This document shows, piece by piece, positions 9,800 through 32,291 of a DNA stretch of 64,000 bases. The notes below the pieces were generated by a model. It did no database searches. It saw nothing but the letters and a program-made list of their open reading frames with translations, and was not told the origin of the DNA. This stretch comes from Fimbriimonas ginsengisoli Gsoil 348 (GTDB lineage: Bacteria; Armatimonadota; Fimbriimonadia; Fimbriimonadales; Fimbriimonadaceae), in assembly GCA_945881865.1 (NCBI GenBank), contig CAMCVK010000013.1, positions 18,838 to 82,837 on the forward strand, given 5' to 3'. The position numbers and the translations under genes are program-made. Within the stretch, counting starts at the first letter, position 1; each line of letters starts with the position of its first letter.

Positions 9800-11839
9800 A
9801 TGGCATCGAACGCGTACGCAAACGGCAAAATCGTGGTCGTCGGGGCCCGCGAAAACAACCTGAAGAACATCACGGTTGAGATTCCTCGCGACCGGCTGGT
9901 CGTGATTACCGGGCTTTCGGGTTCCGGAAAGTCGTCGCTAGCGTTCGAAACCATCTATGCCGAGGGCCAGCGTCGGTATGTCGAGTCGCTGAGCGCGTAC
10001 GCCCGCCAGTTCCTGGGCCAGATGGATAAGCCCGACGTGGACCACATCGAGGGCCTGTCGCCGGCGGTGTCGATCGACCAAAAGACGGCCTCCAAGAACC
10101 CGCGTTCGACCGTCGGAACCGTCACCGAAATTTACGACTACTTGCGAATTCTCTTTGCCCGAATCGGGACGCCGTACTGCATCAACGGCCACGGACCGAT
10201 TGAGCGGCAATCTACCGATCAGATTGTCGACGTCGCGCGCACGCTTCCCGAAGGCACGAAAATCCAGATTTTGTCGCCGATCATTCGCGGCCGAAAGGGC
10301 GAATACAAGAAGGAGCTGCAGGAAGTCGGCCGGGCCGGATACGTGCGGGTTCGGGTGGATGGTCGCATGTATGAGGTCACGGATGACATTCCGATGGACC
10401 GGTACAAGAACCACACGATCGAGGTCGTGGTGGACCGCCTTGTGATGAAGGACGGCATCGAGCGCCGGCTTACCGACTCGATTGAGGCGGCACTGAAGAT
10501 GGGCAAGGGGCTCGTCCAGCTCTCGCTGGAGTTTCGCGACCCCACCGAGGTGCCGGAATTGGTGCAGCAAATCGCCGCGCAACAGGCCTCGCGGGCGACG
10601 GAGCCGCTCCCCGAAGATTCCGTCGAGCTTCTGTTCTCGGAAAGCTACTCCTGCCCGGTATGCGGATTTACGCTGACCGAGCTTGAACCGCGCATGTTCT
10701 CATTTAACTCGCCGTTTGGCGCCTGTCCGGACTGCACGGGCCTGGGTACCAAGACCGAGTTCGACCTTGACCTCGTCGCTCCGGACCTTTCAAAGCCCCT
10801 GCGAAACGGCGCGATTTTGCCGTTTACTTACAAGTCGGGCGAGGTCAAAGACTGGTGGCCGGAGATGCTGGATGCGGTTGGTAAAGTTGTCGGTTTTGAC
10901 GCGGCCGCGCCGATCGGCTCGATCCCCGCCGAGAAAATGGACGCCGTCTGGAACGGCTTGCCTAACCCGATTGAGGTCGACATGAAATACGGAAAGGGCA
11001 CCCGCACTTTCACGACCGAGTGGCGCGGCGTCCTCGGCTCCCTGCGCAAGCGGTACGACGAAACCGAGAGCGAGTGGGTTCGGCAGGACCTGGAGCAGTA
11101 CATGGCGACCAAGCCATGCCCCAGCTGCACCGGAAAGCGACTGAAACCAGATTCCCTCAGCGTGAAAATTACGGATCACGACATCGCCCAGGTGACCGGG
11201 ATGGCGATTGATGACGCGCTGGCGTTCTTCCGCGGCCTTCCCGAGAAGCTGTCTCTTCGCCAGAAGACTATCGGTGAGCGCGCGGTGAAAGAGATCACGG
11301 AGCGCCTCATGTTTCTGGCCGACGTCGGGCTCGGCTATCTGACCATGGACCGAAACGCCCGGACTCTGGCCGGCGGCGAAGCCCAGCGCATTCGGTTGGC
11401 CAGCCAAATTGGCTCGGGACTCATGGGCGTGCTCTACGTTCTCGATGAGCCATCCATCGGGTTGCATCAGCGCGATAACCGAAAGCTGATCGAAACACTT
11501 ATCCGGCTGCGCGACCTAGGCAACACGGTTCTGGTAGTCGAGCACGACGAGGAAACGATGCTAGCCGCCGATCACCTTCTGGAGCTCGGGCCGGGCGCCG
11601 GGGAGCACGGCGGCGAAGTCACCGCTCAGGGAACGGTCGACGAATTCCTAAAAAGCGATGCGATCACCGCGAAATACCTGCGCGGAGAAAAGCGGATCGA
11701 AGTGCCGATTCACCGTCGCGAGCCGAAGTCGCCGCCGCCGATATTTGCCAGCCGTGTGAGCTCGGACGAAACCCAGCCCAAGATCTCGTCGCGGTCGGTT
11801 CGCGGCGGAAAACGGCGCGTCTCGCCGAAAACGATCTGA
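9800..11839 (+). CDS. uvrA: UvrA-like protein, N-terminal half only (NBD1)
   Basis: [81 protein letters not shown] ... [38 protein letters not shown]; no second NBD before the stop. Last ~35 aa antisense to plsC. Confidence 0.9.
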
Positions 11840-12402
11840 ATCGGATTTTTCGAAGCCACGAGGCCCTGTCCCGGCGGCGGCATGAACTCGTCGACGTTGG
11901 ACAACCAGGCGCAAATCACGGGCACCTCCGCCCGCCGCAGAATGAGCGAGATGCCCGGTTTGAGGTCTGGCGGAAGGATGATCGGCGTCGGGTACTCGTC
12001 CGGGCAGCCGCCCTCGGGAAAGATGCCCACCACTTCGCCGGCCTCCAGGAGCTTGAGGGAGTAGTCGATCGCGCTTCGATCCGGCGTGTTCGTCTCCACC
12101 GGGAAGGCGCGGAAGAACCGCAGTAGGTCGCCCACGCGCGGCATGTCAAAAATGTTGCGGTTCGACATGTAGTGAATGGGGCGGCGGGAGGCGTACTGCA
12201 GGACGACCGGGTCGAGGTACGACCGATGGTTCGCCAGAATGAGCACCGGACCCGTGCGCGGGATGTTCTCTGCCCCTGAGATGCGAAGCGGGTTCTTTGG
12301 CCCCTTCTTTTTGAGGCCGCCGAGGAGCACCGGCCGCAGCATCGGAATCACGCCGTTGGCGATCCAAAACGGGTACCGCAGCGGCCGTGCATCTTTTGAC
12401 AT
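11710..12402 (-). CDS. 1-acyl-sn-glycerol-3-phosphate acyltransferase (PlsC family)
   Basis: LANHRSYLDPVVL (HX4D-type), GIFPEGG motifs. Confidence 0.87.
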   Translation of the reverse strand: MSKDARPLRYPFWIANGVIPMLRPVLLGGLKKKGPKNPLRISGAENIPRTGPVLILANHRSYLDPVVLQYASRRPIHYMSNRNIFDMPRVGDLLRFFRAFPVETNTPDRSAIDYSLKLLEAGEVVGIFPEGGCPDEYPTPIILPPDLKPGISLILRRAEVPVICAWLSNVDEFMPPPGQGLVASKNPIQIVFGETRRFPPRTDRDEILGWVSSELTRLANIGGGDFGSRR

Positions 12403-12490
12403 CCCGAAAAATTATGAAGGTAATCCCAAATTTGCGCGGCTCCCTGCCATTCCGCCGATCAGAGTGCTGAGATTCCGATTTCCGGGTTTT

Positions 12491-12940
12491 GGAGTGCGTG
12501 CGGCTCTGCCGCCGCTTTTTTCCGCGGTGTGACACCGGTAAAAACCAACCGGTGGCTACCGAATCGTCTCTCTGAGTGGGAAGGTTCTGGCACCCCGCTG
12601 GGGTGCGCATTTTGGCCGGCATCTGACCCCGGGTCGCCTTGCGACCCGGGGCTACGGTATACGATCCCTTCAGGATCGGGCTTTCAGGGAAATCTAGGGT
12701 TCGTCGGTTCACCCAGAGCGGTTCTCCGAAGGATGGCGATCACGGCGAGGGGGGGAGAAATGCCTCTCCACGATCCCGGAGGGATCGCCGACATTAGCCC
12801 CGGGTCGAAGACCCGGGGACCGCGAGCATCCAGTCCTATCGACCCTGGCAGGGTCGCAGAAACTCTCCTCGAGAGAAAGCGATGGCACGGAGCCATCGGC
12901 TACAGCCCTTCGGGCTCACCGGAACCCCACGCGAAGCGTG
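12491..12940. repeat. Array of short perfect hairpins (intergenic palindromic repeat cluster)
   Basis: Perfect stems, mostly 3-nt loops: 12590-12606 GCACCCC-gct-GGGGTGC; 12627-12651 CCCCGGGTCGC-ctt-GCGACCCGGGG; 12662-12678; 12771-12787; 12798-12818; 12840-12856; 12863-12875; 12880-12898; 12904-12916; 12928-12940. Confidence 0.9.
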
Positions 12941-13027
12941 CTGCCCGGGCTACTCGGTTGGGCCTTCCGGTCTCTCGGCGCGAGCAGACCCACCGGCACG
13001 GTAATTCCGCGCGGGTAACCTGCGGCA

Positions 13028-13489
13028 ATGCGCGTTGCGGTTGGGGGAGACCATGCTGGGTTCGAGCTGAAGCAGTTCCTGGAGCAAGAAATCGAGCGAC
13101 TAGGTCACGACGTCGTGAGCCTGGGCGCACACGAATACAACGCCCTTGACGACTACCCAGACTTCGCCCTTGAGGTCGCCCAGCACGTCGCAAGCCGAGA
13201 CGCCGACCGAGGCGTGGTCGTTTGCGGAAGCGGAATCGGGGCCTGTATCGCCGCAAACAAGGTCCATGGCGTGCGCGCCGGAGTAGGTGCCGACACCTAC
13301 AGCGCCCGCCAAGGCGTGGAGCACGACGACATGAACGTTCTCGCCCTCGGCAGCCGAATCACCGGCATCGAAGTCGTGAAAGACGTCCTGAAGGCTTTCC
13401 TTGCCGCCGAGTTTAGCGGCGAAGACCGCCATGTCCGCCGCCTTAACAAAGTGATCGAAATCGAACGTTTGCCGGGCAACGGAGCCTAG
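13028..13489 (+). CDS. rpiB: Ribose-5-phosphate isomerase B
   Basis: MRVAVGGDHAGFELK, GVVVCGSGIGACIAANKVHGVRAG, HDDMNVLALGSRI. Confidence 0.93.
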   Translation: MRVAVGGDHAGFELKQFLEQEIERLGHDVVSLGAHEYNALDDYPDFALEVAQHVASRDADRGVVVCGSGIGACIAANKVHGVRAGVGADTYSARQGVEHDDMNVLALGSRITGIEVVKDVLKAFLAAEFSGEDRHVRRLNKVIEIERLPGNGA

Positions 13490-31217: not shown

Positions 31218-32291
31218 ATGCGCGAGGCATCTTTCAAATTTTTTAGCCAGTTCGTCAACATCCCGTCCCCATCTGGATTCGAAGAGACGGCCGCCGAGGC
31301 CTACCTCGCTTACGTTGGCGACTTTGCGGATGCGATCACGACGGATGTTCACGGGAACGTGGCCGCTATTTTGAACCCGCATGCCGAGACCAAGATCATG
31401 CTGGCCGGACACATGGACGAGATCGGCTTCATTGTTCACTACATCAGCGAGAAAGGCTTCGTCTACTTCCAGGCGATTGGCGGACATGACACCGCGATTC
31501 CAGTCGGGCAGCGGGTTTGGGTGTACGGCAAGGAGAAGGTTGCGGGCGTGATTGGGCGTAAGGCGATCCATCTCATGGACGAGGAAGAGCGCAAGCGACG
31601 TATCGAAATGCACGATCTTTGGATTGACGTCGGGGCAGACTCGCGCGAAGAAGCCGAGGAGCTGATCTCGCTGGGAGACTGTGTGACCTACCAGGTGGAG
31701 TTCCAGCGGCTGCTGGGCAACCGGGCTACGGCGCGTGGTTTCGACAACAAAATGGGCACGTTTATCGTTGCCGAAGCGCTTCGTAGCCTCAAAGAAGAGG
31801 GCGGATTGCACCCCGAAGTCGGCGTCTACGCCGTGGCGACCGTTCAGGAGGAGATTGGCCTGCGCGGTGCCCGCACATCGAGTTTTAGCATCAATCCGCA
31901 AGTTGGCCTGGCGGTCGACGTGAACCACGCGATGGATACGCCGTCGGTTTCAAAGGCTCGGTATGGAGAATTGAACGTTGGCGATGGGCCCAGCGTGATG
32001 CGCGGTCCGAACTCGAATCCGGTCGTCTTTCGGATGATTCTTGACGCATGTAAAAAGGCAGAGATTCCGTACCAAGTCGACGTGAGCCCCCGAGGCACTG
32101 GCACCGACGGCAACGCGATGCAGCTGAACCGCGCGGGGATGGCGACGGGAATCGTTGGCGTTCCTTTACGCTACATGCACACTCCGTGCGAAGTGCTTTC
32201 GATTACGGACGTTGAGAACTGCGCCCGCATGATGGCCGCCTTCTGCCGCGAAGTCACGCCCGAGACGGACTTCACCCCGCGAGTGGTCTAA
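31218..32291 (+). CDS. M42 family metallopeptidase
   Basis: KIMLAGHMDEIGFIVHYISEKGF, FDNKMGTFIV, VATVQEEIGLRGARTS, DVSPRGTGTDGNAMQL. Confidence 0.93.
   Translation: MREASFKFFSQFVNIPSPSGFEETAAEAYLAYVGDFADAITTDVHGNVAAILNPHAETKIMLAGHMDEIGFIVHYISEKGFVYFQAIGGHDTAIPVGQRVWVYGKEKVAGVIGRKAIHLMDEEERKRRIEMHDLWIDVGADSREEAEELISLGDCVTYQVEFQRLLGNRATARGFDNKMGTFIVAEALRSLKEEGGLHPEVGVYAVATVQEEIGLRGARTSSFSINPQVGLAVDVNHAMDTPSVSKARYGELNVGDGPSVMRGPNSNPVVFRMILDACKKAEIPYQVDVSPRGTGTDGNAMQLNRAGMATGIVGVPLRYMHTPCEVLSITDVENCARMMAAFCREVTPETDFTPRVV

Follow-up and report, generated by a model that had tools for sequence, protein, structure and literature searches.

The hairpin-dense region between a plsC-like gene and rpiB in this Fimbriimonas-group genome is, in our reading (probability of about 0.8), mainly a transposase-less, REP/BIME-like member of a dispersed repeat family that has probably been moved in trans by a TnpA transposase, a mobility that we infer. 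In its native setting, the module from which it is built forms the ends of a small element encoding a Y1 HUH transposase, with the layout c-b-a [tnpA] a-b-c, and its gene-less copies lie in alternating orientation, like E. coli BIMEs. The hairpin cluster itself is a pile-up of dispersed repeats, with most of its hairpins in one 277-nt unit (12585-12861), and is no gene switch.

Composition of the hairpin cluster

The cluster occupies a 625-nt spacer between the two divergent genes in the window, that is, the whole 64-kb stretch of DNA that was analysed. A recheck of the sequence between 12590 and 12940 recovered the ten perfect short-loop hairpins described in the earlier note, with the same stems, loops, and coordinates. 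When non-overlapping, perfect hairpins (stem of at least 5, loop of 3-5) were counted and compared with 1000 dinucleotide shuffles, their number was 10 versus a shuffle mean of 1.4 (maximum 5), their total stem was 69 versus 7.7 (maximum 30), and six had a stem of at least 7 versus 0.11 (maximum 2). The possibility, raised beforehand, that shuffled sequence would give a similar hairpin density was thus not borne out, and a chance origin of this density is ruled out. The region was the sole hairpin peak of the window; elsewhere, with the peak edges excluded, the best 351-nt windows had a total stem of 28. The parts of the array and its neighbouring genes are listed below; the six hairpins a to a' were aligned with other copies.

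11710-12402, minus strand: plsC-like 1-acylglycerol-3-phosphate acyltransferase (neighbouring gene)
12487-12566, minus strand: family C repeat, with GTAG, 2 nt, and an ACCGGT stem (ACCGGT-tggttttt-ACCGGT), plus a GCGGC-tct-GCCGC hairpin; dispersed matches to 12533-12566
12585-12861, unstranded: family A unit, a transposase-less inverted double module, TTCTG-(a b c)-92 nt-(c b a)-CAGAA, from genome copies and model
12585-12589, plus strand: TTCTG foot of the left hairpin a
12590-12606, plus strand: hairpin a, GCACCCC-gct-GGGGTGC
12627-12651, plus strand: hairpin b, CCCCGGGTCGC-ctt-GCGACCCGGGG
12662-12678, plus strand: hairpin c, CGATCC-cttca-GGATCG
12771-12787, minus strand: hairpin c', CGATCCC-gga-GGGATCG
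12798-12818, minus strand: hairpin b', CCCCGGGTC-gaa-GACCCGGGG, preceded by TTAG (12794-12797, plus strand)
12840-12856, minus strand: hairpin a', CGACCCT-ggc-AGGGTCG, followed by CAGAA (12857-12861)
12863-12875, unstranded: CTCTC-ctc-GAGAG, linker of families A and B; the same linker string lies between A and B at G000:C4:224429 (L088)
12879-12964, minus strand: family B REP cluster; dispersed matches to 12879-12946
13028-13489, plus strand: rpiB (neighbouring gene)

The earlier note had taken the region as one array of ten independent hairpins, every stem being different, and this description had to be revised. In the left part, the stem of b (12627) matches that of b' (12798) and the stem of c (12662) matches that of c' (12771), in inverted order, and this part is therefore an inverted double module, while 12880-12940 belongs to another repeat family. 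When the spacer was compared by blastn with its own genome (G000; 3.23 Mb in 26 contigs), the 98 matches obtained fell into separate blocks A, B, and C. The cluster thus consists of at least two, and probably three, dispersed repeat families that adjoin one another. The suspicion that the region might be a decayed ORF is rejected, since the spacer blocks and modules recur dispersed in the genome by blastn and by covariance model.

A copy of the family A unit with 91% identity was found by blastn (12582-12861) at G000:C4:205409-205685, together with many weaker matches, and the R1 covariance model matched both halves of the window unit (C13:31427-31515, plus strand; 31608-31693, minus strand). 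As single-strand DNA, the unit folded better than its shuffles on both strands (z values of -3.8 and -3.9). The CTAC at 12652-12655, directly 3' of hairpin b, corresponds to a GTAG-footed hairpin on the minus strand.

Family B, at the right end of the array, is a REP cluster independent of family A and belongs to a class-2 RAYT. Its hairpins are CGATGGC-acgga-GCCATCG with CTAC at 12900-12903, AGCCC-ttc-GGGCT, and CACGC-gaa-GCGTG, followed by a decayed fourth hairpin at about 12944-12962. Copies of family B lie on both sides of the RAYT gene L003 (G000:C1:291273-291339 and 291977-292040); family B therefore combines a GTAG foot with a flanked class 2 RAYT and is a conventional REP. The L003 product scored 79.4 bits with the RAYT model NF047646 (cut-off 80), carries the motif YIALNP, and gave a weak profile match to the TnpAREP structure 4er8. 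GTAG repeats are known in the PVC group (PMC3733652). The third dispersed repeat, family C (GTAG-footed, with an ACCGGT stem), lies outside 12590-12940; its fuller form starts at about 12487 and often adjoins family A arrays in the same genome, and no cognate transposase was identified for it.

As an observation on the same neighbourhood, UvrA seems to be encoded by two unlinked genes, one at 9800-11839 of the window and one at G000:C3:1259-2272 (L288). Model positions 1-609 are covered by the window ORF, which ends at that point; positions 609-924 lie in a distinct ORF of 337 aa that starts with an ATG of its own on the other contig. Possible explanations are that the gene is split, that it was rearranged, or that the assembly was joined at about 11730.

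The three-hairpin module and its copies

The family A module has the layout a, about 20 nt, b, CTA, about 10 nt, c, and is 80-92 nt long. Hairpin a has a stem of 6-7 bp with CTG at its 5' foot (25/27 modules, the longer TTCTG being found in 18/27). Hairpin b has a stem of 9-12 bp followed by a CTA that was invariant in 27 modules and is equivalent to a TAG-footed hairpin on the other strand; the first letter of this foot is variable, the window copies having GTAG and TTAG.

The stems change while remaining paired. Hairpin a occurs in the same genome in compensatory variants (CGACCCT/AGGGTCG, CGACCCC/GGGGTCG, and CGACGC/GCGTCG). In a pair-change test that took in the window-type copies, a second family of this genome (that of L001), and genomes G032 and G044, 15/23 module pairs were changed on both sides, a value equalled by 0/500 shuffles, and 62 cells had both-sided changes versus 16.1 in shuffles; slid controls collapsed. 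In G044, the b stem is wholly different (CCAGGCATT-AATGCCTGG) and the layout is unchanged. These results corroborate the initial view that selection acts on structure over sequence.

Covariance modelling, an analysis that had been suggested, detected module copies across the whole genome: the R1 model gave at least 38 modules at E ≤ 0.01 under strict filters and at least 45 matches at E ≤ 0.1, these counts being lower bounds owing to the filters and to limits on the number of candidates. About 40 modules are thus present, most of them away from tnpA. Of 19 pairs of neighbouring modules, 18 were oppositely oriented (p = 8e-5). The gap was 9-25 nt in the c-b-a/a-b-c arrangement, which is the position of tnpA, and mostly 76-92 nt in the a-b-c/c-b-a arrangement (92 nt in the window). 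Family A thus displays both the alternating orientation and regular spacing of BIMEs and the dispersed copies away from a transposase gene that are typical of REPs. No precise empty site was found; a G067 spacer corresponded to the spacer of a G044 copy and had no module, but the rest of this spacer was also changed. None of the relatives checked showed plsC next to rpiB.

Transposase genes flanked by the module

The genome contains four Y1_Tnp genes (L001-L004), and the search for a linked Y1 transposase that the earlier note had proposed succeeded, as the module flanks such genes. L001 and L002 are IS200-like by profile, with the motifs DHVH, WQ, and Y---Q--HH, and L003 and L004 have the class 2 NP motif. 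L002 has the layout c-b-a [tnpA] a-b-c, its stems being almost the same as those of the window, and L001 has tandem units upstream. The L002 element extends as far as the contig C4 end, and contig C21 starts with matching sequence followed by a further c-b-a. An assembly break was observed inside this tnpA element: G000:C4:236652-236778 and G000:C21:1-249 carry the same sequence, and C4 and C21 may therefore be adjacent.

In the 61 genomes of the family that were sampled, the transposase was found in 16, modules in 19, and both in 15. Modules were present in 15/16 genomes with the transposase versus 4/45 without it (p = 8e-10), and in 12/13 versus 4/45 when the three genomes used to train the model were left out (p = 2e-8), these p-values overstating independence because the genomes are related. 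Six genera (g1, g5, g6, g7, g15, and g16) are each represented by some genomes that have both and by others that have neither. Among 151 genomes of the phylum, modules were found in 14/23 with a subclass 1.2 transposase versus 5/128 without, and outside the family in 7/14 versus 5/117; this test is weaker than the family test because the threshold that defined subclass 1.2 (profile E ≤ 1e-40, plus the split G014) was chosen after the table had been seen. Among genomes whose sole matches were weaker and IS200-like, one (G121) had modules. At the ten loci at which both flanks gave a module match (G000, G032, G041 twice, G014, G035, G044, G067 twice, and G194), the modules had the same inverted facing around tnpA in 10/10.

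Four genomes of the family had modules and no detected tnpA. G107 and G012 have at least 23 and at least 11 modules, respectively, with no subclass 1.2 transposase detected, which may be due to gene loss, a diverged gene, or an assembly gap. In G061, a complete genome of the same genus (5,231,762 bases), the transposase gave seven matches, and the modules numbered at least 29.

Judged by their motifs (DH[VI]H, WQ, and Y---Q--HH), the module-flanked transposases carry the signature of subclass 1.2, with which they also share a length of about 150 aa. Among 43 genes, Y---Q with the final H was found in 43/43, HH in 42/43, WQ in 43/43, and DHxH in 41/43; the HUH, WQ, and catalytic Tyr are intact in the family. 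The class 2 Y---NP motif was absent from these genes, which have Y---Q--HH instead. In the transposase tree, the hairpin label was scattered and formed no single clade. Among plasmid and phage records, a relative was encoded on only two Bacteroidota plasmids and on no phage.

Other phyla were sampled via 30 genomes. On visual inspection, genes with the same motifs in Acidobacteriota, Planctomycetota, and others had similar flanks, L220 and L232 (a, 20 nt, b, CTA, c) being examples, in line with the similar clusters in Planctomycetes that the earlier note mentions. We then scored 44 transposase loci from several phyla, with the reversed orientation as an internal control. A TAG-hairpin was present upstream at 16/44 loci versus 7 for the reverse form, a hairpin-CTA downstream at 20/44 versus 3, and both flanks at 13/44 versus 1 with both reversed. 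At least one oriented TAG-foot hairpin was found at 23/44 loci versus 1.8 in shuffles (maximum 5) and 8/62 in rpiB controls, a control frequency at which single-locus matches are not rare enough to be taken as proof. By these criteria, 21/44 loci had no recognisable TAG-footed hairpin, and hairpin flanks were looked for and not found at four Bacteroidetes genes (L215, L217, L226, and L227) from two Saprospiraceae genomes.

Relation to known systems and other explanations

Quentin et al. (2018; PMC6006769) defined subclass 1.2 by the same motifs, reported it mostly from Cyanobacteria and Bacteroidetes with REP scored as 'no', and described it without typical IS200 end structures and as not sharing IS properties. 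The four Bacteroidetes genes without hairpins agree with this description. In contrast, hairpin modules are present here in Armatimonadota, Acidobacteriota, and Planctomycetota hosts, and the trait of having neither REP nor IS200-type ends does not hold for the loci scored, given the 23/44 with an oriented hairpin versus a shuffle maximum of 5. A literature search, to which subscription papers were out of reach, found no earlier report of the three-hairpin module.

Family A works like a REP system and, by the class 2 motif, lies outside the class 2 REPtrons. It shares with these TAG-type foot hairpins, inversion around a Y1 gene, and dispersed gene-less copies, but it is a compound module of three hairpins, with an NTAG foot in place of the strict GT[AG]G, and the motif of its transposase is Y---Q--HH instead of Y---NP. 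As in the BIMEs of E. coli and the REPINs of Pseudomonas, orientation alternates and linker sizes are fixed, whereas the unit here has three hairpins and a copy number of about 40 instead of hundreds. Class 3 TnpA-Y1 genes of Planctomycetes and Acidobacteria are likewise surrounded by several atypical hairpins with copies elsewhere in the genome, but have NHVH, W[TA], Y----Q, and a CnGA foot where DH[VI]H, WQ, Y---Q--HH, and NTAG are found here. The family profile matches the TnpA structures of ISDra2 and IS608, indicating the same catalytic fold as in IS200/IS605 elements, which also have hairpins near both ends; the ends here are inverted copies of one three-hairpin module, and the copies are mostly gene-less.

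The last comparison bears on the possibility that the modules are the ends of dead IS200-like insertion sequences, decaying without upkeep in trans by a transposase. A c-b-a/a-b-c pair with its 9-25 nt gap does resemble an element from which the gene was deleted, and tnpA copies are few per genome. Gene deletion nevertheless fails to explain the a-b-c/c-b-a arrangement with its linker of 76-92 nt, which is the most frequent tandem form, and perfect stems with compensatory changes speak against decay. The published absence of IS properties in subclass 1.2 (PMC6006769) also argues against this explanation, which we consider unlikely. The two tnpA copies of the host genome are diverged (50-51% identical), unlike the identical copies expected of IS200/IS605 elements. 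That the modules serve the host, by binding gyrase or a nucleoid protein or by protecting mRNA 3' ends, with TnpA recruited for that purpose, appears improbable: several host proteins are known to bind REPs and BIMEs (PMC2817692), but the modules here are patchy within genera and track tnpA, a distribution more in keeping with a selfish or domesticated mobile repeat than with a function that the host requires.

It is very improbable that the hairpins act in cis, as an RNA element or transcription terminator of plsC or rpiB. The spacer does lie upstream of two divergent genes and contains two terminator-like sites, one in family C and one leading leftward through family B1. The six family A hairpins, however, have no T tracts, the genome contains these modules at about 19 further sites, and no Rfam family matched the array, tRNAs being the only matches in the window. 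A cis element of rpiB was rejected on the ground that the array is missing upstream of this gene in relatives, the rpiB upstream regions of G067, G044, G062, G072, and G061 being without any array.

In the preferred reading, that of a repeat mobilised in trans, TnpA would bind the modules by recognising hairpin b with its NTAG foot, together with the neighbouring hairpins, on single-stranded DNA at replication forks. It would cleave near the conserved CTG foot of hairpin a, a candidate cut site by analogy, because class 2 TnpAREP cleaves at CT dinucleotides (PMC8266576), and would thereby copy or move modules in trans. The stems would then be kept because they are the predicted TnpA binding sites. 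Whether subclass 1.2 TnpA-Y1 represents a third single-strand DNA repeat system, distinct from both IS200/IS605 and class 2 REPtrons, with inverted three-hairpin ends in several phyla and spreading transposase-less BIME-like arrays, is a broader proposal to which we give even odds.

These results provide a candidate DNA substrate for a transposase subclass that was listed without one in the published survey, and thus make its function testable. They also offer an explanation for hairpin-dense intergenic clusters of these phyla and tie them to named genes. With a protein of 150 aa, a module of 85 nt, and natural sequence variants, this compact system is suited to the study of how HUH enzymes read hairpins.
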